Positions 14,446-45,660 of a stretch of DNA of 64,000 nucleotides are shown piece by piece. The notes below the pieces were generated by a model. That model was not told the origin of the DNA. It saw only the letters and a list, made by a program, of their open reading frames with translations, and ran no database searches. Every line of letters begins with the position of its first letter. The first letter of the stretch is position 1. A program made the translations under genes and the position numbers. The DNA comes from a bacterium (lineage in GTDB: Bacteria > Sysuimicrobiota > Sysuimicrobiia > Sysuimicrobiales > Segetimicrobiaceae), in NCBI GenBank assembly GCA_035691305.1, contig DASSJF010000026.1:1-64000 (forward strand). Reading direction: 5' to 3'.

Positions 14446-16053
14446 ATGGGCCTGCATGGCATGACCCGCCGAAGCCTACTCCTTGCCACGTGCTCGGCGC
14501 TCGCCGGTGCGTCGGCCGCCGGACGCTCTTGGGCGGCCGCGGCGCCCGGCGGCGCGCTGACGATCGCGATGCCCGCCGATGCCGAGCCGGCGTCGCTCGA
14601 CGGACAAGTCGATCCCTATGTCAGTGCGTGGTTGCTCAACTCCTTTGTCACCGACCCGCTGGTCATGCTGACGTCATCCGGCCGGTACATCCCGATGCTG
14701 GCCACGGGGTGGACGACCGCCGCCGATGGCCGCGTCTGGACACTCTCGCTGCGCCAAGGTCTCGTCTTTCAGGACGGCACGCCGTTCGACGCCGAGGCCG
14801 TGAAGTTCAACATCGACCGCGTCATGAACCCGGAGACGCACTCGGCGCTGATGGCGAGCTATCTCGGCGTGAAAAATTACCTCAAGACCGAGGTGGTCGA
14901 CCGCCTGACGGTTCGTGTCATTTATGGTTCCCCGGTTCCCGCGCTGCTGTACGGACTCAGCATCTTTCCGCTGTGGTCACCCACCGCGGTCAGGCAGTTT
15001 GGGAGCGGCTTCCAGCAGCACCTCGTTGGTGAAGGCGCCTTTCGGCTGGCCGGCTGGGCGCGCGGCGACAACGTCCGCTTCGTGAGGAACCCCGCCTATC
15101 ACGGGGCCCGCCCGTGGCAGGAGCACGAGGGGGCGCCGTTTCTCGAAAGCATTACGGTACGATTTGTCGGCGATCAAGGCGTGCTCGGACAGATCCTCAA
15201 GACGGGCGAGGCCAATCTCGTCGCGGGTCTGCCGGCGCAGGCGGTCGGCACATATGCCAACCAGCCCGGCTACGAGGTCGTGGCGGGGTACCAGTCCGGC
15301 AACGGCATGATGTTCTCGATGAATACGGCGCGCCCTGCGCTGAACGACGTGAGGGTGAGGCGCGCCCTGCGCTACGCCTACGATCAAGACCGGATGAACC
15401 AGACGCTGTACGGCGGCAGCTACGTGACCGTCAGGGGCCCGCTGACGAAGTACACGCTGTACTATTGGAAGGGCGCCGAGAACGCGTACCGGCTCGATCC
15501 GGGCCGCGCCCGCTCGCTCCTCGATGAAGCCGGCTGGAAAGACAATCCGCGCACCGGCGTTCGGGAAAAAGACGGCCGGCCCTTGACGCTGACGATCGTG
15601 ATGCTGCACCACAAGGAGATCGGCGAATACCTTGCGGCCCAGCTGCGCGCCGTTGGCGTGGACCTGCGGGTCGAAGTCGTTCCCGGCCCGGTACAGCTGC
15701 AGCGCGCGTTCAGCGGCGACTTTGACATCATCTACGAACGGCTGCGGAGCTATGAGCCCGACATCCTCGCCGACGAATTCTACTCCAAGAACTACCGTCC
15801 GGGAGGGTGGGCGTGGACGCGCTATCAGAACGCCGCGCTCGACAAGGTCCTGCTCGAGACACAGTCCACCACGGATCCGGCGCGGAGGCGGGCGCTCTTC
15901 ACCGAAGCGCAGAAGACGGTGACGGAGCAGGCCCTCTACCTCCCGACACTCGACGATCCACAGTATTACGCGATGACGCGGAAGGTCCGCGGCTTTCGGC
16001 TCGGCGCGATCGGCTCATGGTACTTCGTCAACGACGTGTCGATCAGCACGTAG
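14446..16053 (+). CDS. ABC transporter substrate-binding protein, family 5 (SBP1)
   Basis: Exported solute-binding protein of 535 aa with a Tat-like signal (MTRRSLLLAT, then an alanine-rich stretch to about residue 36). Family-5 features are all present: PASLDGQVDP, GLVFQDGTPFDAEAVKFNIDR, VRRALRYAYD and DPGRARSLLDEAGW. GAGGAG lies 7 nt before the ATG, which fixes the start; the open frame extending upstream is not used. It is a close paralog of the protein at 21229: both open the mature chain with P(A)D.EPA.LD.QVDPY and end in W(Y/F)FVNDV. It starts a plus-strand operon with DppB, DppC and Gfo/Idh genes. Confidence 0.93.
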   Translation: MGLHGMTRRSLLLATCSALAGASAAGRSWAAAAPGGALTIAMPADAEPASLDGQVDPYVSAWLLNSFVTDPLVMLTSSGRYIPMLATGWTTAADGRVWTLSLRQGLVFQDGTPFDAEAVKFNIDRVMNPETHSALMASYLGVKNYLKTEVVDRLTVRVIYGSPVPALLYGLSIFPLWSPTAVRQFGSGFQQHLVGEGAFRLAGWARGDNVRFVRNPAYHGARPWQEHEGAPFLESITVRFVGDQGVLGQILKTGEANLVAGLPAQAVGTYANQPGYEVVAGYQSGNGMMFSMNTARPALNDVRVRRALRYAYDQDRMNQTLYGGSYVTVRGPLTKYTLYYWKGAENAYRLDPGRARSLLDEAGWKDNPRTGVREKDGRPLTLTIVMLHHKEIGEYLAAQLRAVGVDLRVEVVPGPVQLQRAFSGDFDIIYERLRSYEPDILADEFYSKNYRPGGWAWTRYQNAALDKVLLETQSTTDPARRRALFTEAQKTVTEQALYLPTLDDPQYYAMTRKVRGFRLGAIGSWYFVNDVSIST

Positions 16054-16080
16054 CCCGCCGGCGCGCCGGGACGGTCTGAG

Positions 16081-17013
16081 ATGGCGGGGTACATCGGACA
16101 ACGGGTGGCCGTCCTGATCCCGGTCGTCGGGCTGGTCTTCACCGTCGTATTCGCCATCATGCACGCGCTGCCCGGAGACCCGGTGCAGCTGATGCTTGCC
16201 GGCGCCGAGGCCGGCGTCACCACGCCGGAGCGCATCGCGCAGCTGCGGACCAGCATGGGCCTCGACCAACCGCTGTATGTGCAGTACGGCCGTTTCATCG
16301 CCCACGCGCTGCGCGGCGACCTGGGCGAATCGATACGGTTTCAGTCGCCGGTGAATGAATTGATCACCGGGGCCTCGCTGCAGACCTTCCAGCTGAGCCT
16401 CGCCGGAATGGCGGCGGCGCTCCTGATCGGCATCCCGCTCGGCATCCTCGCCGGCATCCACGAAAACACGTGGTTGGACAACGCGGCGATGTTCGTCTCG
16501 CTGCTCGGCGTCTCCATGCCGCTGTTCTGGCTGGCGCTGCTGTTGATTCTTCTGGTGGCCATCCATCTGCAGTGGCTCCCGGCGATCAGCGGCCAACAGC
16601 TTCGGGGGCTCGTCCTTCCCGCCTTCACGCTCGGGTTCGTCGCCGCCGGTCTCATCAGCCGGCTGATGCGCGCCAGCCTGATCGAGGCGCTCCGGCACGA
16701 TTACGTCCGCACCGCGCTGGCGAAAGGGCTTCGCCGCCGGGTGGTCACCTCGAAACACGCGCTCCGCAACGCGCTGATTCCGGTGATCACCGTCGCCGGG
16801 CTTCAGTTCGGCGGCATGCTGAGCGGCGCGGTGATCACCGAAACCATATTCAGCCGGCCGGGCCTCGGCTCGCTCATCGTCAAGGCGATCCTGTGGCACG
16901 ATTACCCGCTCATCCAAGGCGCGGTGTTGCTCACCTCGGTGGCGTACGTCTTGGTCAATCTGGGCATCGACCTGTTGTACGCGTTGATCGATCCTCGGAT
17001 CCGCTATGCCTGA
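16081..17013 (+). CDS. Peptide/opine-type ABC transporter permease, DppB family
   Basis: Inner-membrane permease of 310 aa: N-terminal helix, PGDPVQLML at 31-39, about six transmembrane helices, EAA loop (HDYVRTALAKGLRRRVV) and the end LIDPRIRYA. It follows SBP1 by 27 bp and overlaps the DppC-type gene by 8 bp. It is the only permease pair in the 14-26 kb region and so probably serves both SBP1 and the paralog SBP2, which has no permeases of its own. Confidence 0.93.
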   Translation: MAGYIGQRVAVLIPVVGLVFTVVFAIMHALPGDPVQLMLAGAEAGVTTPERIAQLRTSMGLDQPLYVQYGRFIAHALRGDLGESIRFQSPVNELITGASLQTFQLSLAGMAAALLIGIPLGILAGIHENTWLDNAAMFVSLLGVSMPLFWLALLLILLVAIHLQWLPAISGQQLRGLVLPAFTLGFVAAGLISRLMRASLIEALRHDYVRTALAKGLRRRVVTSKHALRNALIPVITVAGLQFGGMLSGAVITETIFSRPGLGSLIVKAILWHDYPLIQGAVLLTSVAYVLVNLGIDLLYALIDPRIRYA

Positions 17014-32414: not shown

Positions 32415-34436
32415 TTATCCCGGCCGCACGCGGCCGGCCATCTGCTGCGCTATGTCGCCCACGAGACCGGCCAGACCGGCGGGTCTCGTGGTCCGCCCGG
32501 CTCGGACGCGTGCGTCCACCTCGATCATCGCCCGCTGCTTCAGATAGTTGCGAAGCGACAGCGGATAGCCGGCGAGCGCGGCGTTGAGCGCGGTCTGCAT
32601 CGCGTCGGTCCAGACCGCCTCGAAGGCGTCCCGTTCGGGCCCGTAGTCGAATTCGAGCCGCCGCGCGGGCCGGCCGCTCCGCACAACCTGCGTCGCCGCC
32701 GCGTCGAGTTCGCCGTCCTGGAGCACGACGCCGTAGTCGGCTCGGGCCGATTCGGACGAGACGAGACCGCGCCGGACATCGGCGAGAACGCGGAGCGGGT
32801 CTCGCTCGTACGGGTCACCGTAGCCGCCGCCGCCCTGCGAGAGAAACGTCATCGTGTCCCCGGGCTGGAGCAGCAACTCATCGATGCGGCCGGTCGGCGC
32901 CTCGTCGGCTGCGCCGCGGTTCTTGAACGCGGTGCCGGGACGGCCCGGCATCCCGCCGAGCCGTCCCCATGGCCGAAAATGCATGCGCTCCATGCCGCGG
33001 GCCGTCATGACGGTATCGGGCGAAAAGACGCGGATCGTAAGCTCGATACCCATGCCTCCCCTGTACCGGCCGGGACCGCCTGAGTCCGGGCGCAGACCGT
33101 AGTGCTCCACCAGGAGCGGCATGTCGGCTTCCAGGGTCTCCGCCGGCACGTTGCGGAGATACCCGACCGAGAAATCCATCCCGTCGATGCCGTCCGCCAT
33201 CGGGCGCCCGCCGCATCCCCCGCAGATCGGCTGGACCACGCCCACCAACCGCTTCCCCGTCCGCATATCATCCATGGCCAAAAGCACAATGCACGCCTGA
33301 CCGGCGCCCGCCGCGGGCAGCCGGTCCGGCTGCGCGAGGCTCAGTGCGCCAATCAGGACGTCCATCAACCGAATGAAGGTGGCGGCCCGAACGCCGACGG
33401 CCGCGGGCGGCTGTGGGTTCAGCAAACTGCCGAGCGGGGCGCTGTTCCGGACCATTCGGACCATGCCGGTGTTCCATGGCACCGCCGGGTCGAGGGTGCG
33501 AAAATACCGCACGAGCGTGGGGACGAACATGAAATGCCCCTGCTTGTTGGACGATGGGAGATTAAACGCCGCGCGGACTTGAGGGTCGGTGCCCTCGAAG
33601 TCCAGCAACACCTCCTCCCCGCGCACGACGAGCCGGCAGCGCAGCCGGATGGGATAGCCGCCCGGACCGTCCTCGAGATAGTCCCAGAACGTGTACTCGC
33701 CATCCGGGATCTCGCGGATCATCGCGCGCACCCGGCGTTCCGCGTAGCCGAGAAGATCCTCGATGCCGCGCTCGACCTGCGCGACGCCGTACCGCGCGAC
33801 CAGCTCGTGGAGCCGCCGCTCTCCCGTGTGCAGCGCCGCCATCAATGCCCGGAGGTCTCCCCAGTTCTGCTCCGGGATGCGGCAGTTATCGAGGAAGATG
33901 CGGAGGATCCGCTCGTCGAGCTGTCCGCGCTCATACAGCTTGACGGGAGCCAGGCGTATACCTTCCTGATAGATGTCGTAGGCGGCCGGCGTGATGCTGC
34001 CGGGCACTTTGCCGCCCACGTCCGACGAATGCACAAAGCAACACCCGAACGCGATAACGCGGCCCTCCGCGAAGATCGGTTTGATGAGGTAGACGTCGGC
34101 GAGATGGGTCGATACGCCCGCGGTCGCGTAGGGATCGTTCGCGATCGCGATGTCCCCTTCGTGCCACTCGGGGATCGCGTCGATGATGCCTTCCCCGGGG
34201 ATGCCGAGCGATAAGTTCACCCCCGTCACGACCGGGGACCCGAAGGTTTCGCCCGCGGGCGACAAGAGGAACGTGCCGAAGTCCGCGGTCTCCTTGACGA
34301 ACACCGTGAACCCGGTGCGGAGTACGACGTTGGCCATTTCCTCCGCGATCGCCTGAATCCGATTCTTGAAAATCCCAAGGAACACCGGATCGGCCGTCGT
34401 GGAGCGCTCTTCGCCGAGACCCGCGCGCGCCGCCAT
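32415..34436 (-). CDS. hyuB: Hydantoinase/oxoprolinase family, subunit B
   Basis: Large-subunit-B type protein of 673 aa. The PF02538-type core runs from about residue 20 (FKNRIQAIAEEM) through the NDPY...THLADVYLIKPIF block to the GGGGYGDP motif near residue 545. An extra C-terminal segment of about 120 residues follows, which makes it longer than many HyuB proteins. Its ATG overlaps the hyuA stop (TAATG), so the two subunits are coupled. HyuAB enzymes use ATP to open five-membered cyclic amides such as hydantoins, oxoproline and N-methylhydantoin, and related proteins carboxylate acetone; the substrate here is undecided. Confidence 0.92.
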   Translation of the reverse strand: MAARAGLGEERSTTADPVFLGIFKNRIQAIAEEMANVVLRTGFTVFVKETADFGTFLLSPAGETFGSPVVTGVNLSLGIPGEGIIDAIPEWHEGDIAIANDPYATAGVSTHLADVYLIKPIFAEGRVIAFGCCFVHSSDVGGKVPGSITPAAYDIYQEGIRLAPVKLYERGQLDERILRIFLDNCRIPEQNWGDLRALMAALHTGERRLHELVARYGVAQVERGIEDLLGYAERRVRAMIREIPDGEYTFWDYLEDGPGGYPIRLRCRLVVRGEEVLLDFEGTDPQVRAAFNLPSSNKQGHFMFVPTLVRYFRTLDPAVPWNTGMVRMVRNSAPLGSLLNPQPPAAVGVRAATFIRLMDVLIGALSLAQPDRLPAAGAGQACIVLLAMDDMRTGKRLVGVVQPICGGCGGRPMADGIDGMDFSVGYLRNVPAETLEADMPLLVEHYGLRPDSGGPGRYRGGMGIELTIRVFSPDTVMTARGMERMHFRPWGRLGGMPGRPGTAFKNRGAADEAPTGRIDELLLQPGDTMTFLSQGGGGYGDPYERDPLRVLADVRRGLVSSESARADYGVVLQDGELDAAATQVVRSGRPARRLEFDYGPERDAFEAVWTDAMQTALNAALAGYPLSLRNYLKQRAMIEVDARVRAGRTTRPAGLAGLVGDIAQQMAGRVRPG

Positions 34437-36481
34437 TACACGGCCTCCCCGATGAGATTGCCGAGGCCGTCGGAGCGCACCCGATATCCGGCCGGGACAA
34501 AAGTGGTCGTGTCATACTGTTCGACGATTACCGGGCCTGCGATCCACCGGTCTGCACCGACCGCAGCGCGGGGAAGCACCGACGCCTTCGTCTCCCGCCC
34601 GTCGAGGAACACCGACCGCGTCTCGCCGCGAGACGCGTCGGTGCGTCCGGCCCGCGCCTCCAGCCGCGCAACCTTCGCGGTCACTCCTACGACGGTCGCG
34701 CGGAGGTTCACGAACATGAGCGGTGCGTCGGGGTCGCTCACGCCGAACACCGAATGGTACAGCTCATGAAAGCGCCGTCCGATCGCTGTCCGATCGCCGC
34801 GCTCCGCGCCCGGCACGGCGACTTCGATCTCAAACGCCTGCCCTTCGTAGCGCATGTCGGCGCTGTAGAGGACGTACGATGACTCGAGAGCGATCCCGCG
34901 CGCGCTCTCTTCACGAAGCCATTGGCCTCCCTGGTCCTCCAGTCGGGCGTACCCTTCTTCGAGTTCCTGCTCGGTCAGGTCCTTGCCGCTTCGATACAGC
35001 GTGTGCACGAAATCGTTGCGCAGGTCGGCAACGATGCATCCGAGCGCACAGAGCGTACCGGGCGACGGGGGTACAAGCACCCGCCCGATCCCAACCTCGC
35101 CGGCCAGCAAGAACGCATGGGTGGGTCCGGCGCCTCCGTAGGCAAGCAGGGTGAAGTCCCGGGGGTCTACGCCGCGCCTGGCCATGAGGGGGGTGAACTG
35201 CGCGTACATGTTCGAGGTCGTCACGTCCATGATGGCCTGCGCGGCCGCCCGCGAAGAGATCCCCAGTGCGCGGCCCAACTCTTCCAGCGCGCGGGCGGCG
35301 AGAGTGGCGTCGAGCGGCATCTGTCCGCCGAGGAACCGGTCCGGGGCGATGATCCCGAGGTGAACATACGCGTCCGTCACCGTGGGAAGGCGACCGCCTC
35401 GACCGTAGCAGGCCGGACCCGGATCGGCGCCGGCGCTCTGCGGGCCGACTTTCAAGACGCCCGCGGCGTCGAGCCACGCAACTGATCCTCCCCCGGCGCC
35501 GATCGAAGAGACGTCGACGGCCGGCATGATGACCGGGAAATCGCCGACCGAGTTCTCAGTCGAATAGGCCGGCTGCCCCTCGGTGACGACCGCCACATCG
35601 GCACTGGTGCCGCCCATGTCCAGCGTAACGATGTGTGACGCGCCGGCGAGCCGCGCGACGTGCGCGGCACCGATCACACCCGACGCCGGTCCCGACAGCA
35701 GCGTGTGCACCGGTTCCTCAGCGGCGCGGGCGGCCGTCATGACGCCGCCGTTCGATTTGGTCGAAAGGACCTGCGCGCGAAGACCGTGCCGCGCGGCACC
35801 CGCGTCCAATCCTCGAAAGTACCCCGCCATCCGCGCGCCGATGTAGGCGTTCATCACCGCCACCAGGCAGCGCTCATACTCGCGCTGTTGCGGCCAGAGA
35901 TCCGCGCTCACGCAGACGAATAATTCCGGCCGTTCGGATCGCACGATGTCCCGCGCCCGGCGCTCGTGCGCCGCGTTCCGGTACGCGTGCATGAAGCAGA
36001 CCGCGATCGCTTGGACGCCGTCACCGGCCAGCCGCCGCGCAGCCTCACGCACCCCCGCCTCGTCGAGCGGACGGTGAACCCCGCCGTCGGCGAAGAGACG
36101 CTCGTCGATCTCTACCACGAGATCGCGGGGCACGAGCGGCACGGGCTTTTCTCCATAGAAGTCCGTCGTGTTCTCGAGGCGCAGCCGGCGGATCTCGAGA
36201 ATGTCGCGGAAGCCCTTGGTTACAAGCAGGCCCGTGCGTGCGCCGTTCCGTTCGATCAAGGTGTTTACGGCCAGCGTGGTGCCGTGGACGAAGAGGGCCA
36301 CGTCCTCCGCCGCGATGCCGGCGGCCGCAAGCTCGGAAAGCGCCTGAAAGACCGCCGCTTCCGGCGCCGAGGGCACCGACGGGGTCTTGAGCGTCGCGAC
36401 CACGGATCCCGTTTCATCCGCCACCATGACGTCGGTGAATGTCCCGCCGATGTCGACCCCGAGCCGGTAGCGTGCCGCCAT
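34436..36481 (-). CDS. hyuA: Hydantoinase/oxoprolinase family, subunit A
   Basis: ATPase subunit of 681 aa. The ASKHA-type nucleotide motif DIGGTFTD (10-17), VHGTT (65-69), the NTLIERNGARTGLLVTKGF region and the second phosphate motif DMGGTSADVA (288-297) are all present. The ATG is chosen because a GAGGGGGG tract lies 8-10 nt upstream and the protein then starts exactly at the family N-terminus. The 200-bp gap above it contains an inverted repeat and may carry a separate promoter, although it could also be read from the gntR operon. It works with HyuB in ATP-dependent cyclic amide opening. Confidence 0.93.
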   Translation of the reverse strand: MAARYRLGVDIGGTFTDVMVADETGSVVATLKTPSVPSAPEAAVFQALSELAAAGIAAEDVALFVHGTTLAVNTLIERNGARTGLLVTKGFRDILEIRRLRLENTTDFYGEKPVPLVPRDLVVEIDERLFADGGVHRPLDEAGVREAARRLAGDGVQAIAVCFMHAYRNAAHERRARDIVRSERPELFVCVSADLWPQQREYERCLVAVMNAYIGARMAGYFRGLDAGAARHGLRAQVLSTKSNGGVMTAARAAEEPVHTLLSGPASGVIGAAHVARLAGASHIVTLDMGGTSADVAVVTEGQPAYSTENSVGDFPVIMPAVDVSSIGAGGGSVAWLDAAGVLKVGPQSAGADPGPACYGRGGRLPTVTDAYVHLGIIAPDRFLGGQMPLDATLAARALEELGRALGISSRAAAQAIMDVTTSNMYAQFTPLMARRGVDPRDFTLLAYGGAGPTHAFLLAGEVGIGRVLVPPSPGTLCALGCIVADLRNDFVHTLYRSGKDLTEQELEEGYARLEDQGGQWLREESARGIALESSYVLYSADMRYEGQAFEIEVAVPGAERGDRTAIGRRFHELYHSVFGVSDPDAPLMFVNLRATVVGVTAKVARLEARAGRTDASRGETRSVFLDGRETKASVLPRAAVGADRWIAGPVIVEQYDTTTFVPAGYRVRSDGLGNLIGEAV

Positions 36482-36576
36482 GATGGTTCCCCCCTCGACG
36501 ACAGCGACTTTTTCCGCGGACGACGCCGCTCCTGCCGTCACGGGTTCTATCGGGTCGTGGCAGTCTACTGACGCTC

Positions 36577-36682: not shown

Positions 36683-37108
36683 TCACGTCTCGATGGATCG
36701 CCGGGAGGCCGGTCCCTCCACGCGGTTCAAAGTGGCCGCGGCGTACGCGCGCCACCCGCCGTAGGACGAGATGTCACGGTGTCCCGCCTCGGCCAGTGCG
36801 CGCGGGTAGAGGATGCCCGCCACCCGCCGCCCGTCTTCGAGCACGACCTCCCCGCGGTACAAACCGGGGGGCTCTCCCGCCTCGATCCGCCGGCAGAGGT
36901 CCTCGGTCACGCGATACAACTCTCCCGACACGGACACCCCGCCCTCGGAGGTTTCGAACATGCCGGGGTGCCGGTCGCCGATCGAGTACAGCCGGTAGAT
37001 CGGGGCCGTGCGGGCCTCGCCCAGAAACACGGCCCCGTCGAGGTTGCCGTGAAGGGCGAGGCCCCGCATCAGCGTCCCGTTGACGAACAGCTCAACCGCC
37101 ATTGCCAC
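36683..37108 (-). CDS. Stand-alone gamma-glutamylcyclotransferase-fold protein resembling the allophanate hydrolase C-terminal domain
   Basis: Small protein of 139-141 aa. VELFVNGTLMRG at the N-terminus, EARTAPIYRLYSI, HPGMF and an acidic E..PPGLYRG segment match the cyclotransferase-like fold found both in gamma-glutamylcyclotransferases and as the C-terminal domain of allophanate hydrolase (AtzF). In AtzF that domain decarboxylates the product of the amidase domain; here no amidase domain is attached. Starts at GTG 37108 or ATG 37102 both overlap the NCS2 permease stop. Encoded close to a biuret-hydrolase-like gene, which would make allophanate, so the resemblance may be meaningful. Confidence 0.72.
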   Translation of the reverse strand: MAMAVELFVNGTLMRGLALHGNLDGAVFLGEARTAPIYRLYSIGDRHPGMFETSEGGVSVSGELYRVTEDLCRRIEAGEPPGLYRGEVVLEDGRRVAGILYPRALAEAGHRDISSYGGWRAYAAATLNRVEGPASRRSIET

Positions 37109-38702
37109 CGCCGGGCGCGGAAGCCGGCGCCGGCACCTCGCGGAGGTTTCGCATTCCCTCGGTGCTCAGCTGTCCCGCGTGCCAGGCGGCCACCGTGAAC
37201 GTAACGGCCATGAAGAGGTAGCCCAGGGTGACCTGCGGCGACATGTTTAATCCCACGGGACCAATCGAGTTGATCAGCCCGAAGAACGACAGGACCGCGC
37301 CGGCCAGCGTCGTCACGATCGCCTTGACGAACTGGCGGTCGATGACGAACGCCGCGATCGCGCCGAGCACCATGCCCGCGAGCACCGCCCCGCCCGCGAA
37401 CAGCGCCATCCCGTGGTAGATGTCCCCGGCGCCCGGCTTGTCGAGGCCCAGCTTGATCGCATCGGTGCCGGCCGCGCCGAGCGCGTCGTCCACCAATCCC
37501 TTCGCCCACAGCGCGACGTTCGGCAGCAGGGCAAGCACAACCGCCGGAGCGTGCCGCGCCGGCGTCGTCTGGAAGGCCTGAGCGCCGATCACCAACCCGA
37601 TGAACAACAGAATCGGCAGCAGGGCCTGAATCGGGATCACGGCAAGCAGCAGCGCCACGAGGCCGAAGAACACCACGCCCGCCACCACGAAGCCCGTCGC
37701 CAGCGAGTACCCGATGCGGCCGCCCACGGCCTTCCAGCCGGGGTGTCCGATGTAGACGGCGGGGGGGAACGGGCTGCCGAGAAACGACCCGATGATCGCG
37801 CCGAAACCGTCCGCCAGCAGGATGGAGCGCAGGTTGTAGCTGTCGCCGGCGGCGGACGCGCTTTCCACGTTGTTCATGCCCTCGGTGAAGTTGTAGACGC
37901 CGAGCGGAATCGCCGTCGCCAGCAGCGGGCCCATGTCCCGCAGACCGCTCAGCACTTTCCCGTCGGCCGCCGGGAGATGCAGGCCGAACTGCCGGAACGA
38001 CTCGCCGACGGCGGACGGCACCAGGATCCCCGTCCATCCCAGGAGTTGGGCGATCCATCCCACCGCCGTGCCGACGACGACCGCCGCCAGCCCGCCGGGG
38101 ATGTTGAACGGCAGGCGCACGTTGGCGACCCAGCTCACCAGGATGATGGCGAAGGCGATGAAGCCGATCCAGGGGACTTCCCACATCTGAAACGCCGGCC
38201 GCATGGAGATGAAGACGATCGAGATTCCGGCGAGCGTCCCCAGCATCGCCGCCCGCGGCGTGAACGCGCGGATCGAGGGCCCGATGAAGGCGCCGATCAG
38301 GATGATCACGCCGATGATGAACGCCCACGCAAGGCCGGCGGTCCAGGCCTTGATCGGATCGTGGGTCGCCAGCACGATCGGCAGCATGATGACGAACACC
38401 ACGATGAACATGTGCGGCACGCTCGGCCCGTAGGGCATCGCCGCGACGTCGCTGCGCCGCTCCGTACGCGCGAGCCGGTAGGCCAGGTACGCGTAGAAGA
38501 TGTTGCCGAGCGGCAGCGCGATGCCGAGCGCCGGGAGGATCCGGCCGAACACGATCCCCTCCGGCAGTTTGATCACGCCGAGCACCAGGCTGCTCAGCAC
38601 GATGACATTGAGGATGACGTTCGTCCCGAGGCCGAAGAACGCGTTCCAGTCGCCGGGCACCCACAACCGCGGCCGAAACTCACCCGCCGAAGCCGCCATC
38701 AT
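37092..38702 (-). CDS. NCS2 family (xanthine/uracil/purine) permease
   Basis: Polytopic inner-membrane transporter of 536 aa with about 12-14 hydrophobic helices. Features include the N-terminal DWNAFFGLGTNVILN, the AMPYGPSVPH segment, NFTEGMNNVESASAAGDSYN and FPPAVYIGHPGWK in the core, and a hydrophilic end. It belongs to the NCS2 purine/pyrimidine symporters, closest in style to the AzgA-like branch; the ligand could be a purine, a pyrimidine or a ureide such as allantoin. Two ATGs in tandem start the gene, directly after a run of ten G on the coding strand. It sits in the nitrogen-scavenging gene run between the isochorismatase and the allophanate-hydrolase-like gene. Confidence 0.88.
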   Translation of the reverse strand: MMAASAGEFRPRLWVPGDWNAFFGLGTNVILNVIVLSSLVLGVIKLPEGIVFGRILPALGIALPLGNIFYAYLAYRLARTERRSDVAAMPYGPSVPHMFIVVFVIMLPIVLATHDPIKAWTAGLAWAFIIGVIILIGAFIGPSIRAFTPRAAMLGTLAGISIVFISMRPAFQMWEVPWIGFIAFAIILVSWVANVRLPFNIPGGLAAVVVGTAVGWIAQLLGWTGILVPSAVGESFRQFGLHLPAADGKVLSGLRDMGPLLATAIPLGVYNFTEGMNNVESASAAGDSYNLRSILLADGFGAIIGSFLGSPFPPAVYIGHPGWKAVGGRIGYSLATGFVVAGVVFFGLVALLLAVIPIQALLPILLFIGLVIGAQAFQTTPARHAPAVVLALLPNVALWAKGLVDDALGAAGTDAIKLGLDKPGAGDIYHGMALFAGGAVLAGMVLGAIAAFVIDRQFVKAIVTTLAGAVLSFFGLINSIGPVGLNMSPQVTLGYLFMAVTFTVAAWHAGQLSTEGMRNLREVPAPASAPGGGNGG

Positions 38703-38745: not shown

Positions 38746-39447
38746 TTACCCGCGCGCCGTTCCCGCGGCGCCGGCCACCGGCGCCTTGGCCAGCGCGTCA
38801 AGAAAGCGCGTGGAGTCGCTCACCCAGCCGAAAATGCCGCCCTGCGCCTTGATCATCTTGATGCCGACCGCCTGAAACTCCGGGAAGTACGACGCCACGC
38901 AGTCCTCGAGGACGAGGCAATCGTACCCGCGGTCGTTGGCCTCGCGGACGGTCGTGTGCACGCACACCTCGGTCGTCACGCCGCAGACGATAAGTTGCTG
39001 AATCCCGCGCGTGCGAAGAATCGCATCGAGGTCGGTGGCGTAGAACGCCCCCTTGCCCGGCTTGTCGACGAGGGGCTCGCCCGGAGCGGGCTTGAGCTCG
39101 TCGACGATGTCGTGCCCGTACTCGCCGCGCACGAGGATCCGCCCCATCGGCCCCGGGTCGCCGATGCCGGTCTTGAGGTGCCCCCGCACCTTCTTCGCGC
39201 GGGGCAGATCCGCGAGGTCGGGGCGGTGCCCCTCGCGCGTGTGCACCACGAGGACGCCCGCGCGGCGGGCCGCCTGGAGCACGCGCACGGTGGGCGGCAC
39301 CGCCCTGAGCAGCAGCGACGTGTCGTTGCCCAGCGCCTCCCCAAACCCGCCCTTGTAGACGAAGTCCCGCTGCATGTCGATGATCACCAGCGCCGCCGTC
39401 GCGGGATCGAACTCGAACTCGTACGGTTCCGCTCGGACACTCAGCAT
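38746..39447 (-). CDS. Isochorismatase-family cysteine amidohydrolase, biuret-hydrolase-like
   Basis: Cysteine hydrolase of 233 aa. The catalytic triad is D24 (IIDMQRDF), K132 (DKPGKGAF) and C162 ([11 protein letters not shown]), with the cis-peptide motif GVTTE. The [13 protein letters not shown] and REANDRGY blocks recall bacterial biuret hydrolases, which convert biuret to allophanate and ammonia; N-carbamoylsarcosine and ureidoacrylate amidases share the fold. The ATG overlaps the carbamate kinase stop (TGATG) and has a GGAGG 5 nt upstream. Neighbours (carbamate kinase, carbamoyltransferase-like proteins, ammonium transporter) support a ureide or biuret nitrogen role. Confidence 0.88.
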
Positions 39448-40451
39448 CACGCCTCCCCCCTTCTCGCCTGTAGGATGCCGTCGGGCACCACACGCGTGCC
39501 GGTCTTTCCGGCGACCGCTTCGGGCAGCCGGTACGGCGACGTGATCAGCACCTCGGTGCCCCCGCGCTCGAGAAACTTGATGGCCGCCCGGATCTTGGGG
39601 CCCATGCTGCCTTCGGGGAACTCCCCTGCCGCGAGATAGGCCCGCGCCTCCGACACCGTCAACCGGTCGAGGAGGCGCTGGTCGGGTTTGCGGAAGTGCA
39701 CGGCGACCTGGTCCACGCCGGTCGAGATGATCAAGAGCGAAATGCCGAGCTCGCTCGCCAGCAGCGCCGACGCGAGATCCTTGTCGATGACCGCCTCGAC
39801 CCCCTCGTATACTCCCGGGGCCCGTTCCGCGACCGGGATGCCGCCGCCGCCGGCCGCGATGACGACGTAGCCGGCGTCCACGAGTGTACGGATCTGCGGC
39901 GTCTCGACGATGCGCAGCGGCTGCGGCGACGGCACGACGCGCCGGTACCCGCGTCCCGCGTCTTCGACCATCTGCCATCCGGCCCGCGCTCGCTTGACGG
40001 CCGCCTGCTCGACCGTGAAATAGGGCCCGATCGGCTTGCTCGGCTCGCGGAACGCCGGGTCCGCCTCGTCGACGACCGTGTGGGTCAAGAGATACCCCAC
40101 GCGGTCGCGCAGGCCGAGCGCGGCCAGCTCACCGGACATCGCGTTGCTTAAAATGTGGCCGATCCCGCCCTGGGAGTCTGCCCCGCACATGTCCAGGGTC
40201 AGCGCGGGGATGGGCGCCGACTCGCCGATCAGCTCGGAGCGCAGCAAGATGAAGCCGACCTGCGGACCGTTGCCGTGCGTGACGACGACTCGCCACCCGT
40301 CGGCCGCCAGCCGCGCAATCGGCCGGGCGGTCTCGCGCGCGTTCTCCATCTGCTCGGCGATCGAGCCGTGCTGGCCGTCCCGAATCAGGGCGTTGCCGCC
40401 GATCGCGACGAGCAGGCTCCGCGAGCCGGGCGTCTCGGCGGGGCCGGTCAC
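39447..40451 (-). CDS. arcC: Carbamate kinase
   Basis: Amino-acid-kinase-fold enzyme of 334 aa that converts carbamoyl phosphate and ADP into ATP, CO2 and ammonia. Nucleotide/phosphate loops AIGGNALI (16-23) and THGNGPQVG (58-66), the GGGGIPV segment and [10 protein letters not shown] are clear. The GTG start overlaps the DUF1116 stop as GTGA. No arginine deiminase or ornithine carbamoyltransferase genes are near; instead it follows fdrA and DUF1116, as in the E. coli allantoin cluster where oxamate carbamoyltransferase supplies carbamoyl phosphate. Confidence 0.93.
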
Positions 40452-41902
40452 GCGGCGGCCTCCACGCCGGCCCGGCGCGCGAGCGCCCGCAGCGCGTCGA
40501 CGAAGCACGGAAGGGGGGCCCGCGTGATGCCGGCGCCGATCTGCCCCACGCCGGCCCGGCGGTGCGCGATGCCGGTGTTGATCACCGGCAGTTCTCCCGT
40601 TTCCACGACGCGGCGAACGTCGATCGCCGTCGGCGTCCCGAGGAAGTCCAGCGCCGCCAGCGTGTACGCGGGATTGCGCGCGAGGGTGATCCGGTACATG
40701 GCGCGCGTGAAGGCGACCGCGTCCGCCGGCGTCCCGCCGACGAAACGCACGATCGCGGGGGCGGCCGCCATGGCGAAGCCGCCGAGGCCGCACGTTTCCG
40801 TGATCGCGCTGTCGCCGAGATCCGGGTTCGCGTCGGCCGCACTGTAGCCCGGGAAATACAGACCGTCGGGGACGGGCACCGGAGCGGTGAACCACGCGTT
40901 TCCGAGGCCGCTCACCCGAAGCCCGAACTCGACGCCGTTACGCGCCATCGCGGTGACCACCGACGAGCCGTCGATCCCGTGGGCTGCGTCGAGCGTGGCC
41001 TTGCACGCCGCCATCGACAGATTGAGATAGAAGTGGTCGTTGCCCCGCAAGAATTCGAAGACGGACGCCGCGTCGTCCGGGGCGCTCGTCCGCACCAGCG
41101 CGAGCGCCGCGGCCCGGGTGAAGAGCGATGTCGCGGCGACGTTGCGGTTGTGGCACTCGTCGCCCATCTGCAGCGCCTGCGCCGTCAGGTTGGCGAGATC
41201 CACCGGCTCCTGCCGCAGCGCTCGGGAGAGCGCCGGCCCCAGCGTCTCGGCCATCCAGCGCAGACGCGCGATGACGGACGCGTCGTAGGCGCCGTAGCGG
41301 AGCACCTTGCCAAGCCCTTCGTTGAGCGTGGCAAAGGCCCGGTTGCCGAAGGTACGGTTTTCCACCACGACCACCGGCATCGACGGCGAGACGAGACCCG
41401 CCATCGGTCCGACCGCGGCGTGCTCGTGGCACGGGGCGAACCGGATCTCCCCGCTTCCCGCCAGCGCTTCCGCGGCCTCGGGTGTCGGGGCCCAGCGCTC
41501 GAAGAGGATCGCGCCGATCACGGCGCCGCGCATCGGACCGCACATCCGGTCCCACGTGATCGGCGGACCGCTGTGCAGCAGCGTCCGCGGCGTCATGCCC
41601 GGGACGGCGTCGATCGCCGGGCGGACGTCGAGCAACGCCGGCCGCCCGGCGACGATCCGGCTCGACGCCTCCGCGTTGGCCTCTGCGACGCGTGCCCCCG
41701 CCGGATCGTCTCGATCGTCCTCGAGGCGCGCCACCAGCAGGCCGAGCGGACGGTCGCCGTCGGCCGGCGGCCGCCAATCGAGTTGCAGACACGACGCGCC
41801 GTGCGCGCGCACCGGCTCGGCGAACCCCGCGACGCCGATGTTCACGGCGCGGGCGCCGTCCGGAAAGAACGCGGCGCGGGCCTCCGCCCGGCCGGCCGTC
41901 AT
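40448..41902 (-). CDS. DUF1116 family protein, AllG-like subunit of an oxamate/ureide carbamoyltransferase
   Basis: Cytoplasmic protein of 484 aa of the DUF1116 (YlbE) family. Recognisable blocks are AVNIGVAGFAEPVRAHG, LDWRPPADGD, HSGPPITWDRMCGPMRGA, GDECHNRN and GNDHFYLNLSM. In E. coli, YlbE (AllG) works with FdrA (AllF) and YlbF (AllH) to turn oxalurate and phosphate into oxamate and carbamoyl phosphate. The ATG overlaps the fdrA stop as ATGA. No AllH/DUF2877 gene is found in the window, so either this version is a two-subunit enzyme or the third subunit is elsewhere. Confidence 0.88.
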   Translation of the reverse strand: MTAGRAEARAAFFPDGARAVNIGVAGFAEPVRAHGASCLQLDWRPPADGDRPLGLLVARLEDDRDDPAGARVAEANAEASSRIVAGRPALLDVRPAIDAVPGMTPRTLLHSGPPITWDRMCGPMRGAVIGAILFERWAPTPEAAEALAGSGEIRFAPCHEHAAVGPMAGLVSPSMPVVVVENRTFGNRAFATLNEGLGKVLRYGAYDASVIARLRWMAETLGPALSRALRQEPVDLANLTAQALQMGDECHNRNVAATSLFTRAAALALVRTSAPDDAASVFEFLRGNDHFYLNLSMAACKATLDAAHGIDGSSVVTAMARNGVEFGLRVSGLGNAWFTAPVPVPDGLYFPGYSAADANPDLGDSAITETCGLGGFAMAAAPAIVRFVGGTPADAVAFTRAMYRITLARNPAYTLAALDFLGTPTAIDVRRVVETGELPVINTGIAHRRAGVGQIGAGITRAPLPCFVDALRALARRAGVEAAA

Positions 41903-43455
41903 GACGCGCCTCCATGACCGCCGCGCGCGCGACGGTCTGTCCCGGCCGGCGCCGAAGCGCCGCCGCCCGACGCGATCCGAGCGGCGAGCCGTGCCGCGGC
42001 GGCGTTGCTGGGCGCGAGCGCGATCCCGGCCGCGCTCAACGTCGCCCGCTGACGCCGGAGATCCTGGGGATCGTCGGCGGTGCCGCACACGGACGCGACG
42101 ACGGCGAGGTCGCGCCCCGCGCGGTGCGCTTCATCGACCGCGTCCCGAACCGCCGGGGCCAACGCCCCGGCCGGATCGGGGTGGGAATTGTAACCGAGCA
42201 CCACATCGAGCAGGACGACGGCCACCGCGGGCTCGCGCGATGCCTCCACGATGAACTGGTTGCGGAGACTCGGATCGATCATGGGGTGCGGCCGGCCCAC
42301 CGTGTATTCGTCGTCGCCGAGATCGATAATCTTCACGCGGCCGGCGGAGCCGTCGCCGAGCGCGGCGGCAAGCACGAGCTTGGCCTCGCCGGCGAGCGAG
42401 CCACCGCAGAAGAGTCCCCGGACGTCGCGCTGGGCCGGCGCGAATCGGTACGCCGGAAGCGCCCCTGGCTCGTCTTCCTCCGGCCAACTCAGCATCGCGA
42501 CTGCCACGCCGCGCTCGAGCGCCACGGCGTTCCGCGCAGCGTCCTCGAACGTGACCGCCGCGTCGAGTCCCGGCGCGGCGGCCGATCCCAGGAAATTGAC
42601 GACGACCGGCTTGCCGCACTCGCGCGCCGCGGCGAGGACGCGGTCCGCGACCGCGGGGGCCGGCGGCTTCGAGATGAGCACGATCACAGCCGTGCCGTCG
42701 TCACCGGAGAGACGGCGCAACGCACACAGCGTCATCCGGCCACCGACGTCCGCGCTCAAGTCGCGGCCGCCGACGCCGATCATCTGGGAGACGCCCTCCC
42801 CCAGCCGGTCGATCAGGCAGGACACCTGCTGGAGACCGGTGCCGGAGGCGCCGATCAGCCCGATGCGGCCGCGGCGAATCACGTTGGTGAACCCGAGCGG
42901 GATGCCGTCCAGCATTGCGGTGCCGCAGTCGGGACCCATCACGAGCAGATTCTTGCGTTCGGCAACCGTTTTCAGCTCGACTTCGTCCCTCACCGGCACG
43001 TTGTCGCTAAACAGGAAGACGTGCAGACCGCGCTTGAGCGCCTTGAGGGCCTCGGCGGTCGCGTAGGGGCCGGGCGTCGAGATGAGGGCCAGATTCGCAT
43101 TGTCGATCTCGGCCAGCGCGTCGTGGAGCGTAACGGGCGAAGCGGGACGGCGCTCATCCGCGGCGGTGCGCGTCGAGCCGGTAAACGCCGAAGCGGCCCA
43201 GTCGAGCGCTGCTTCTGCCGCGGCCTGGCTCTCCGCGCAGACCGCGACCACCAGGTCGGCCGGCTTCGCCTCCGCCGCGGGATCGGTCATAAGCCCCGCA
43301 TCCGCGAGCATGCCGAGGTTGGCGGGCGTACCCATGACGATGCCCGCCCGGAGTACACCGGGGCGGCGCTGCACCTCGCCGGCGATGCGCATCGACTCGA
43401 CCGAATCCCGATACGTGCGGGGGAACACCCGCTGCCGCACGACGCCCGCCATCAC
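41899..43455 (-). CDS. fdrA: FdrA/AllF-like protein (CoA-ligase-fold subunit of a carbamoyltransferase)
   Basis: Protein of 518 aa with succinyl-CoA-synthetase-like folds. A CoA-binding-type Rossmann region includes GPDCGTAML and GLIGASGTGLQQVS, followed by a ligase-like part with KPVVVNFLG and LDVVLGYNSHPDP. It corresponds to E. coli FdrA (AllF). The start is GTG 43455 (GTGA overlap with the gntR stop) or the ATG one codon later. Coupled to DUF1116 and carbamate kinase it should form the phosphorolytic carbamoyltransferase that feeds ATP synthesis from a carbamoyl-containing amide. Confidence 0.88.
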   Translation of the reverse strand: MMAGVVRQRVFPRTYRDSVESMRIAGEVQRRPGVLRAGIVMGTPANLGMLADAGLMTDPAAEAKPADLVVAVCAESQAAAEAALDWAASAFTGSTRTAADERRPASPVTLHDALAEIDNANLALISTPGPYATAEALKALKRGLHVFLFSDNVPVRDEVELKTVAERKNLLVMGPDCGTAMLDGIPLGFTNVIRRGRIGLIGASGTGLQQVSCLIDRLGEGVSQMIGVGGRDLSADVGGRMTLCALRRLSGDDGTAVIVLISKPPAPAVADRVLAAARECGKPVVVNFLGSAAAPGLDAAVTFEDAARNAVALERGVAVAMLSWPEEDEPGALPAYRFAPAQRDVRGLFCGGSLAGEAKLVLAAALGDGSAGRVKIIDLGDDEYTVGRPHPMIDPSLRNQFIVEASREPAVAVVLLDVVLGYNSHPDPAGALAPAVRDAVDEAHRAGRDLAVVASVCGTADDPQDLRRQRATLSAAGIALAPSNAAAARLAARIASGGGASAPAGTDRRARGGHGGAS

Positions 43456-44192
43456 CGCGGCTCCTGGACGAAGTAGATCTGTGCCAGCGCCTTCACGCTC
43501 TCTTTGCTGTCCAGGATGTGGCGCTCCATCCGGTCCGCCGCCTCGCGCGGAGCGCGCGCTTGGATCAGCGCGAGGATCTCGAGGTGATCTCTACGGGTGG
43601 ATGCCGCCCGTTCGGCGCGCGAATAGTCGATGCGCCGGATGATCCGGATGCGCTCGTTGATCCTCCGAAGGAGCTCCACCAGCTCGGTGTTGCCGGTGAC
43701 CGCGGCGATGCCGAGGTGCAGCCGTTCGTCGACCTGCAGCCAGTCCAGTGCAGTCATCGCGCCTCGCCGCTCGTCCAACCGCTCCCAGTCCTCCGTGATC
43801 CGGGCCAGCGACGCGTGGGGAGCTCCCTCCGCCGCGGTCCGGGCCGCGTGCCGTTCGATGGCGATGCGGAGATCGTAGACCTGATTGACCTCGGCAAGCG
43901 TATACGCCCGCACCGAATAGCCCTGGCGGGGCACCAGCACGAGCCAGCCTTCCTGCTCGAGCCGGCGCAGCGCTTCGCGTGCCGGCGTCCGGCTGACACC
44001 GAGTTCTGTGGCCACCTGAATCTCGCTGATGCGCTCGGCGGGTCGCAGCTGAAGAGTAAGGATGCGCTCTTTGAGCGTCTTGTACACGGCCTCGCCGCGG
44101 GGTTGGTCGCTCGGGCCGCGCTGCCGTGACGAACGGCGCGCGCGCGGCGCCCGGCCTTTGCCGGTCACTCTATTCGCGCGGGGCAGCGGCAT
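43452..44192 (-). CDS. GntR family transcriptional regulator, FCD (FadR-type) subfamily
   Basis: DNA-binding regulator of 246 aa. A basic N-terminal tail of about 30 residues precedes the winged helix (about 33-100, including ISEIQVATELGVSRTPAREALRRLEQEG written here only as its type region). The all-helical FCD ligand-binding domain follows (about 108-235, with YDLRIAIERHAARTAAEG). FCD ligands are carboxylic acids bound through a metal. It heads the minus-strand nitrogen operon and faces amt across a 205-bp gap that holds three GTATAC hexamers, the expected type of GntR half-site. Confidence 0.92.
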   Translation of the reverse strand: MPLPRANRVTGKGRAPRARRSSRQRGPSDQPRGEAVYKTLKERILTLQLRPAERISEIQVATELGVSRTPAREALRRLEQEGWLVLVPRQGYSVRAYTLAEVNQVYDLRIAIERHAARTAAEGAPHASLARITEDWERLDERRGAMTALDWLQVDERLHLGIAAVTGNTELVELLRRINERIRIIRRIDYSRAERAASTRRDHLEILALIQARAPREAADRMERHILDSKESVKALAQIYFVQEPR

Positions 44193-44219
44193 CGGTCTCC
44201 TATCGAACCGTTATCTGCA

Positions 44220-44249
44220 GTATACCGACTTGTATACAGCGGCGTATAC
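44220..44249. promoter_or_regulatory. GntR operator array: three GTATAC hexamers at 12-bp spacing
   Basis: Self-complementary GTATAC occurs at 44220-44225, 44232-44237 and 44244-44249, exactly 12 bp apart. The array begins 27 bp above the gntR start and about 150 bp above amt. FCD-type GntR regulators often bind short T.GTATAC-type palindromes. The array probably controls gntR-fdrA-DUF1116-arcC and amt together. The remaining intergenic DNA up to the amt ribosome-binding site shows nothing else clear. Confidence 0.7.
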
Positions 44250-44397
44250 GATTACTCCTCCCCTTGCGGAGGGCGGCGGCCAAGCGGTCACGCGATCGGG
44301 GCACGAGGCCGCCGGCGGAACGCGCGCCGGCGGTGAGCAAGGTAATCTCCCTGGTCATCGCAAACCACTGCGTCTAGGTCGGTCACCGGAGGGTGCC

Positions 44398-45660
44398 ATG
44401 CTGCACCTCGATACCGGCAACACTGCCTTCATGATTCTCTGTTCAAGCCTCGTGATGCTCATGACGCCGGGTTTGGCGTTCTTTTATGGCGGGCTGGTCG
44501 GCCGGAAGAACGTCCTCGCCATCATGATGCAAAGCTTCGTCTCGATGGGCTGGACCACCGTGCTGTGGTGGCTCGTCGGGTTCTCGATGTGCTTCAGCGG
44601 CGACCTGAAGTCGGGCACCGACATCGGCGGAATCATCGGCAACTTTCACTGGGCGTTTCTCCGCGGCGTAACGCTGTCGACGCCGTCGCCCAACGACACG
44701 ATTCCGCTGATCGTGTTCTGCGCCTACCAGATGATGTTTGCCATTATTACGCCGGCGCTGATCACGGGCGCCTTTACCAATCGCGTGACCTTCAAAGCGT
44801 ACTTCCTATTCCTCACCGCGTGGTTGCTGCTGGTCTACTTCCCCTTCGTGCACATGGTGTGGGGCGGCGGGCTCCTGGCGTCCTGGGGGGTCAAGGACTT
44901 TGCCGGCGGCATCGTGGTCCACAACATCGCGGGCATGGCCGCGCTGGCGTCGGTGCTCTACGTGGGCAAGCGTCGGGTCGCGGATGAGGGGCCTCACAGC
45001 ATCCCGCTCGTGGCGCTGGGCACCGGCCTGCTTTGGTTCGGGTGGTACGGTTTCAACGCGGGCAGCGAATTCCGGGTGGACTCCGTCACCGCCGTGGCCT
45101 TCCTCAATACCGACCTCGCCGCATCGTTTGCCGCGATCGCGTGGCTGGTAATGGACTGGCTGCTCACCGGGCGGCCGCGCTTCCTCGGCCTGCTGACGGG
45201 AGCGGTCGCCGGCCTGGCCACGATCACGCCGGCCGCGGGGTTCGTGTCGCCGGCCGCGGCGTGCTTGATCGGCATCGTATCGGGCGTCGTCTGTTATTAT
45301 GCAGTCGCCCTGAAAAATCGCCTGCGGTGGGACGACGCTCTGGACGTGTGGGGGGTCCACGGGGTCGGCGGCTACCTCGGGATCGTCATGCTGGGCCTGA
45401 CGGCCTCAACCGCGTGGAATCCGGCCGCGTCCGGAGGGGTGGACGGATTGTTCCGCGGGGGCACGCACTTCTTTCTGGTCCAATGGGGAAGCGTGACGCT
45501 CGCGGCGGCGTGGGCGTTCTTCTTCACGCTGGGGATGCTCTGGGCGATCGAACACATCACCCCGGTGAAGGTGCCGGAACTCACAGAAGTCACGGGTCTC
45601 GACGAGGGTATTCACGGCGAAAAGGCCTACATCTTGGAAGGCGCGCCGTTGGCCCCGTAG
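44398..45660 (+). CDS. amt: Ammonium transporter (Amt/MEP/Rh family)
   Basis: Inner-membrane ammonium channel of 420 aa with about eleven transmembrane helices. The recruitment-site aspartate is D167 (KDFAGG), the pore twin histidines are H175 (GGIVVHNIAG) and H321 (WGVHGVGG), and the C-terminal tail ends with the conserved GLDEGIHGEKAY. GGAGG precedes the ATG by 5 nt. Divergent from gntR, so it would take up or recapture the ammonia released by the ureide/biuret enzymes. No glnK lies next to it. Confidence 0.95.
   Translation: MLHLDTGNTAFMILCSSLVMLMTPGLAFFYGGLVGRKNVLAIMMQSFVSMGWTTVLWWLVGFSMCFSGDLKSGTDIGGIIGNFHWAFLRGVTLSTPSPNDTIPLIVFCAYQMMFAIITPALITGAFTNRVTFKAYFLFLTAWLLLVYFPFVHMVWGGGLLASWGVKDFAGGIVVHNIAGMAALASVLYVGKRRVADEGPHSIPLVALGTGLLWFGWYGFNAGSEFRVDSVTAVAFLNTDLAASFAAIAWLVMDWLLTGRPRFLGLLTGAVAGLATITPAAGFVSPAAACLIGIVSGVVCYYAVALKNRLRWDDALDVWGVHGVGGYLGIVMLGLTASTAWNPAASGGVDGLFRGGTHFFLVQWGSVTLAAAWAFFFTLGMLWAIEHITPVKVPELTEVTGLDEGIHGEKAYILEGAPLAP

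Follow-up and report, generated by a model that had tools for sequence, protein, structure and literature searches.

The window analysed here is a 64,000-nt stretch (positions 1-64,000 of the forward strand) of contig DASSJF010000026.1 in assembly GCA_035691305.1, which represents a member of the Segetimicrobiaceae (Sysuimicrobiota). On the minus strand of this window lie, in order, genes for a GntR-type regulator, FdrA, AllG, carbamate kinase, an isochorismatase-like hydrolase, a permease and a stand-alone allophanate hydrolase C-domain (AH_C). The first five genes overlap one another (GntR-FdrA by 1 base, FdrA-AllG and AllG-carbamate kinase by 4 bases each, carbamate kinase-hydrolase by 1 base); the permease gene follows the hydrolase gene after a gap of 43 bases and overlaps the AH_C gene by 11 bases. 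The features are as follows.

43452-44192, minus strand: regulator of the GntR/FCD family, first gene of the operon (Pfam GntR and FCD)
41899-43452, minus strand: FdrA, AllF-like with YahF architecture (Ligase_CoA and CoA_binding domains; match to 3DMY)
40448-41902, minus strand: AllG/DUF1116 (PF06545, 2.7e-96; 3CLQ, 1.6e-132)
39447-40451, minus strand: carbamate kinase with a GTG start (above the cut-off of the PRK12352 carbamate kinase subfamily)
38746-39447, minus strand: TrtA-type isochorismatase-like hydrolase, probable triuret hydrolase (TrtA 6XIX, 1e-83)
37092-38702, minus strand: NCS2-like permease, probable ureide importer (adjoins TrtA in most of 80 loci; predicted fold)
36683-37102, minus strand: stand-alone AH_C (PF21986, 7.4e-32; 5C5Z; C-domain of 4GYR)
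44371-45660, plus strand: ammonium transporter amt, associated with the operon but not part of its core (PF00909, 1.5e-103)

The coupling of FdrA, AllG (DUF1116) and carbamate kinase through 4-base overlaps, described in the initial annotation of this DNA, is confirmed by the coordinates, and the Pfam and NCBIfam names agree with it. FdrA passes the FdrA subfamily model (479 bits against a cut-off of 433) and is thus recognised as an AllF subunit, as the DUF1116 protein is recognised as an AllG subunit by its profile and structure matches. The AH_C gene at 36683-37102 had escaped that annotation. Conversely, amt, which had been joined to the cluster, is present but is encoded on the other strand and diverges from gntR; in one relative (L060) it flanks the cluster at its opposite end, and none was found at the locus of another (L070). 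The permease does adjoin the hydrolase gene but lies outside the interval previously given for the cluster, and a sequence-based assignment to the NCS2 family was abandoned, since the protein matches no Pfam, NCBIfam or PDB profile. It is NCS2-like by predicted fold alone, which resembles the UraA, SLC26 and SLC23 transporters (probability 1.00, TM about 0.5). It is a probable importer of the ureide.

The same seven genes occur in the same order in two relatives of the same family (L060 in genome G026 and L070 in genome G032), in which the GntR gene also lies upstream of FdrA (69-73% identity), and the gene set is present in Chloroflexota as well (L131, L133). Partial sets, or sets with a different permease, were found in Mycobacterium (L143, L144), in Alpha- and Gammaproteobacteria and on an E. 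coli plasmid (L073). We rejected a chance neighbourhood because these genes occur together again in relatives and in further phyla. A HyuA-HyuB pair of the hydantoinase/oxoprolinase type, with caprolactamases as its nearest models, lies 141 bases downstream of AH_C (32415-36541); it was discarded as a core member, as no such pair was seen next to AH_C at either L060 or L070.

The hydrolase and its genomic context

Among solved structures, the hydrolase best matches the triuret hydrolase TrtA (6XIX; 1e-83, 284 bits), followed by the biuret hydrolase BiuH (6XJM; 1.8e-73, 250 bits), and RutB is a far weaker match than either. At 13 diagnostic positions taken from PMC7948467, which are catalytic, substrate-binding or separate TrtA from BiuH, the protein is identical to 6XIX throughout. 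It has the triad D24, K129 and C162, the binding residues E72, K132 and Q202, and, as in 6XIX, F, N, A, E, Y and I at positions 35, 41, 134, 160, 187 and 205, respectively, whereas BiuH sequences have Y, Y, D, T and V at positions 35, 41, 160, 187 and 205, none of which occurs in the window protein. It also fails the NCBIfam BiuH equivalog cut-off (284 bits against 370). An identity as BiuH was rejected on the diagnostic residues and this cut-off, and because all 13 diagnostic residues match those of the crystallised TrtA we read the enzyme as TrtA-type and, judging by sequence, as probably a triuret hydrolase. The isochorismatase-fold enzyme of the initial annotation therefore stands, but its label should be triuret-hydrolase-like rather than biuret-hydrolase-like; likewise, D24 and C162 were correctly named as motif residues, but K129 serves as the catalytic lysine, and K132, which had been listed, binds the substrate (PMC7948467).

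The hydrolase belongs to the same superfamily as BiuH and RutB, and the E. coli version of the operon, which carries a CodB-like permease, has been taken to serve pyrimidine use (PMC12928451). By extension, the substrate of the window enzyme might be a different ureide, biuret or ureidoacrylate for example, and the operon might serve pyrimidine nitrogen use; given how much weaker the RutB match is, and that every position separating TrtA from BiuH is TrtA-like, we regard this as very improbable.

The products of TrtA acting on triuret are ammonia and carboxybiuret, and the latter breaks down to biuret, half of it within about 20 min (PMC7948467). The window operon resembles the TrtA-TrtB-BiuH-AtzF pathway of Herbaspirillum (PMC7948467) in the identity of its TrtA diagnostic residues but has FdrA-AllG, carbamate kinase and AH_C in place of BiuH and AtzF. 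No other relative of the hydrolase exceeding 31% identity over a long match was found in the window genome, indicating that it has no BiuH-like protein; no AtzF-like or full allophanate hydrolase was found there, the stand-alone C-domain being the only part present, and urease is absent from this genome. Convincing urease was seen in only three genomes of the class (G035, G036 and G038), two of which are complete and without AllG and AllH.

When a single genome of each species was scanned and the best 80 relatives across many phyla were kept, the same permease followed TrtA at most of these 80 orthologous loci, often accompanied by a hydrolytic route (BiuH, amidase); the permease of the window operon is also that of most TrtA loci with BiuH or an amidase, a likeness to the triuret pathway. 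FdrA is present at 12 of the 80 loci, together with AllG at 11 and carbamate kinase at 10 of the 12 (L162 is an incomplete locus and L155 lacks carbamate kinase). AH_C occurs at 9 of the 12 loci with FdrA and at 1 of the 68 without it (Fisher p = 9e-9, a value that ignores relatedness). BiuH was found at 1/12 loci with and 21/68 without FdrA (p = 0.16), and an AtzF-like amidase at 2/12 and 28/68 (p = 0.19), neither difference being significant alone; 28 of the 68 loci without FdrA had neither BiuH nor the amidase within the stretch examined. BiuH occurs together with FdrA at L155, and the AtzF-like amidase with FdrA at L136 and L146. In Peptoclostridium (L226), a comparable operon has two permeases of this kind, but its hydrolase differs at 2 of the 13 diagnostic positions.

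Subunit architecture and the probable location of AllH

A domain of about 50 residues divides the FdrA-AllG pairs into two types. In one, comprising E. coli AllF and the AllH-linked pairs of this class, it forms the C terminus of FdrA; in the other, comprising YahG, the window AllG and the other pairs linked to TrtA or to the cyanuric acid hydrolase AtzD, it forms the N terminus of AllG. Residues 16-60 or so of the window AllG correspond to the FdrA-type C-domain, matching FdrA residues 510-554 and the C-domain queries, and the window FdrA, lacking the C-terminal domain of E. coli AllF, does not have the AllF architecture; the domain was absent from every FdrA of the YahG-type group that was examined. 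The YahFG architecture is common to every TrtA- or AtzD-linked pair in which both genes are present and sets these pairs apart from E. coli AllFG and from the AllH-linked pairs of the class. The nearest AllG relatives without TrtA (L058 and L061) have only FdrA beside them and no recognised pathway gene, and they therefore give no clue to the substrate.

In its tight coupling of FdrA, DUF1116 and carbamate kinase the operon resembles E. coli AllFGH with AllK (PMC11326118, PMC9843812), where phosphorolysis leads to carbamoyl phosphate and ATP; we propose the same chemistry here. The two systems differ in that the operon here contains no AllH gene, the C-domain of about 50 amino acids is on AllG and not on FdrA, and TrtA, AH_C and the permease are linked in place of allantoin genes.

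As the initial annotation held, the cluster contains no DUF2877 (AllH) gene, which is also true of the G026 and G032 clusters. Searches of the assembled window genome, by profile and by the protein of a relative, found no AllH either, but an assembly gap is the best explanation of this wider absence. In the class, 38 of 43 genomes have AllG (1-3 copies) and 35 of the 43 have AllH, nearly always as a single copy, which lies near another FdrA-AllG pair whose architecture is different. Among genomes of the phylum that are at least 90% complete, AllH accompanies AllG everywhere except in the window genome, and two such genomes lack both genes. In a genome of the same genus (G023), AllH lies at 15154-16131 of stretch L054; contig C82 of the window genome tracks this stretch to about 14,170 and then ends, and base 1 of contig C46 lies opposite position 16,328, leaving a gap of about 2.15 kb that spans the syntenic AllH site. 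Because the contigs break exactly around this site, we doubt a genome-wide loss of AllH and rejected it in favour of the gap, the apparent absence being very probably an assembly artefact. Besides the AllG of the operon, the window genome encodes two more (L051 on contig C82 and L052 on contig C41 of G000), one of which has an AllF-type FdrA and is near this assembly gap, and the other no recognisable FdrA beside it.

The initial annotation had suggested that the carbamoyltransferase works with two subunits in an organism without AllH. The search result in the assembled genome is in keeping with this, as are two Mycobacterium genomes, Mycobacterium sp. shizuoka-1 (L144) and MAG nzgw95 (L143), which carry TrtA-FdrA-AllG-carbamate kinase-AH_C and in which AllH was found by neither profile nor motif. 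However, the motif pattern missed an Edwardsiella AllH that the profile detected, so that it is the profile that carries the weight and the silence of the motif in Mycobacterium is weak evidence. Furthermore, E. coli requires all three genes in vivo (PMC11326118), and in relatives of the window organism, where AllG carriers of at least 90% completeness all have AllH, this gene is single-copy and apart from the FdrA-AllG pair of the TrtA operon, its counterpart in the window genome most likely falling in the gap between C82 and C46. We thus consider a two-subunit enzyme improbable here. Elsewhere, AllH lies on a separate contig (L147) or between TrtA and FdrA (L145), and the two Mycobacterium genomes may hold genuinely AllH-less systems of TrtA, AllF, AllG and carbamate kinase.

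Cyanuric acid hydrolase links and a proposed ATP-conserving route

On plasmids of Klebsiella, Citrobacter and Aminobacter (L074, L229 and L071), AllH-AllF-AllG-carbamate kinase lies beside a ring-opening amidohydrolase that passes the AtzD equivalog cut-off. AtzD and TrtA share the product carboxybiuret (PMC7948467), and in the AllG tree the AtzD-linked Klebsiella sequence groups with those of the TrtA-linked E. coli plasmid L073 and of Edwardsiella (L192) with support of 100/99, although TrtA-linked AllG sequences do not form a single clade. It is mainly because TrtA and AtzD, with one product, join closely related carbamoyltransferases that we propose carboxybiuret or biuret as the substrate. 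The direction of the earlier idea, a biuret-type substrate other than oxalurate with energy gained via carbamate kinase, is thereby supported, both by architecture and by the links to TrtA and cyanuric acid hydrolase. Fragments of AllG were also seen on atzC plasmids of Paenarthrobacter and Agrobacterium (6001-6237 of L227 and 6001-6465 of L228), that of L227 adjoining atzC and that of L228 both arcC and atzC.

The AllF/AllG architecture of the window is shared by the E. coli operon yahEFG-yahI and the ExPEC region GR29 (PMC12928451). The GR29-type cluster L073 (5825-13035), found on E. coli plasmids of which many are poultry-derived, has a TrtA-type hydrolase, AllF, AllG, carbamate kinase and AH_C, as here, but includes AllH within the operon (AllH-AllF-AllG-carbamate kinase-AH_C) and a CodB-like permease, and the yah operon lacks TrtA. 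The structure 5C5Z looks like a solved L073-type AH_C. The C-domain of allophanate hydrolase is a decarboxylase in the K. lactis enzyme, and by analogy AH_C is a candidate N-carboxylate decarboxylase. Its absence from the AtzD-linked cassettes speaks against a required role as carboxybiuret decarboxylase.

We favour, with moderate confidence, the view that the operon imports and degrades triuret or a close ureide and conserves ATP through FdrA-AllG and carbamate kinase. The gene content, the TrtA residues, the recurrent association, the lack of BiuH-like and AtzF-like relatives in the genome and the gap at the AllH site are direct observations, and from them we infer the following substrates and reactions, together with the part played by AH_C and that of AllH as a shared subunit. 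The permease would bring in triuret or a close ureide, and TrtA would release ammonia from triuret to give carboxybiuret, which would pass to biuret and CO2 either spontaneously or via the stand-alone AH_C. FdrA-AllG, probably assisted by the single AllH expected elsewhere in the genome, would then use phosphate to split carboxybiuret or biuret into carbamoyl phosphate and allophanate or urea, and carbamate kinase would form ATP, ammonia and CO2 from carbamoyl phosphate and ADP. The module would in this way do the work of two enzymes not found in the window genome, biuret hydrolase and allophanate hydrolase, and urea would remain over, as oxamate does in E. coli (PMC11326118). Against this pathway stand the absence of urease from the genome, with which urea would stay unused, and the fact that oxalurate is the substrate of the family's only characterised member, an enzyme dependent on all three subunits (PMC11326118).

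FdrA-AllG and carbamate kinase could instead constitute an ordinary oxamate carbamoyltransferase system for oxalurate that happens to lie beside a separate triuret gene in a ureide island. The family names fit, no substrate other than oxalurate has been demonstrated for the family (PMC11326118), and the same view has been taken of nitrifier clusters, in which allFGHK beside biuH, trtA and atzF was assigned to oxalurate degradation (PMC12625717). Those clusters, like the window operon, co-locate the carbamoyltransferase with triuret and biuret genes, but they contain BiuH and, in comammox, AtzF too, whereas no BiuH-like or AtzF-like protein that could process the TrtA product was found here. 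Moreover, the window genome has a second pair, of AllF architecture, whose relatives adjoin AllH and which could serve oxalurate, and the pairs linked to TrtA and AtzD have an architecture of their own. We therefore hold oxalurate to be an unlikely substrate of this operon. The association itself is not wholly undescribed, as had been supposed, since PMC12625717 and PMC12928451 report such clusters and assign them oxalurate or pyrimidine substrates; among the non-subscription papers searched, cyanuric acid and carbamate kinase appeared together only in PMC12625717.

More broadly, a phosphorolytic, ATP-yielding branch of triuret and cyanuric acid catabolism may exist in several phyla and on plasmids, with a carboxybiuret or biuret carbamoyltransferase made of YahFG-type FdrA-AllG pairs in place of biuret hydrolase and allophanate hydrolase, with one AllH shared by several such pairs in the present lineage and with AllH dispensable in some Mycobacterium, a generalisation that we offer tentatively and with slightly less than even confidence. 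The triuret, biuret and cyanuric acid routes cited are hydrolytic and conserve no energy. If the ATP-conserving route proposed here is correct, bacteria would gain ATP from fertiliser and triazine residues in a manner comparable to arginine or allantoin, and the two published guesses on such clusters (oxalurate and pyrimidine) would be corrected. It would also provide a testable substrate for a large FdrA-DUF1116 group that lacks one, E. coli YahFG-type relatives included.
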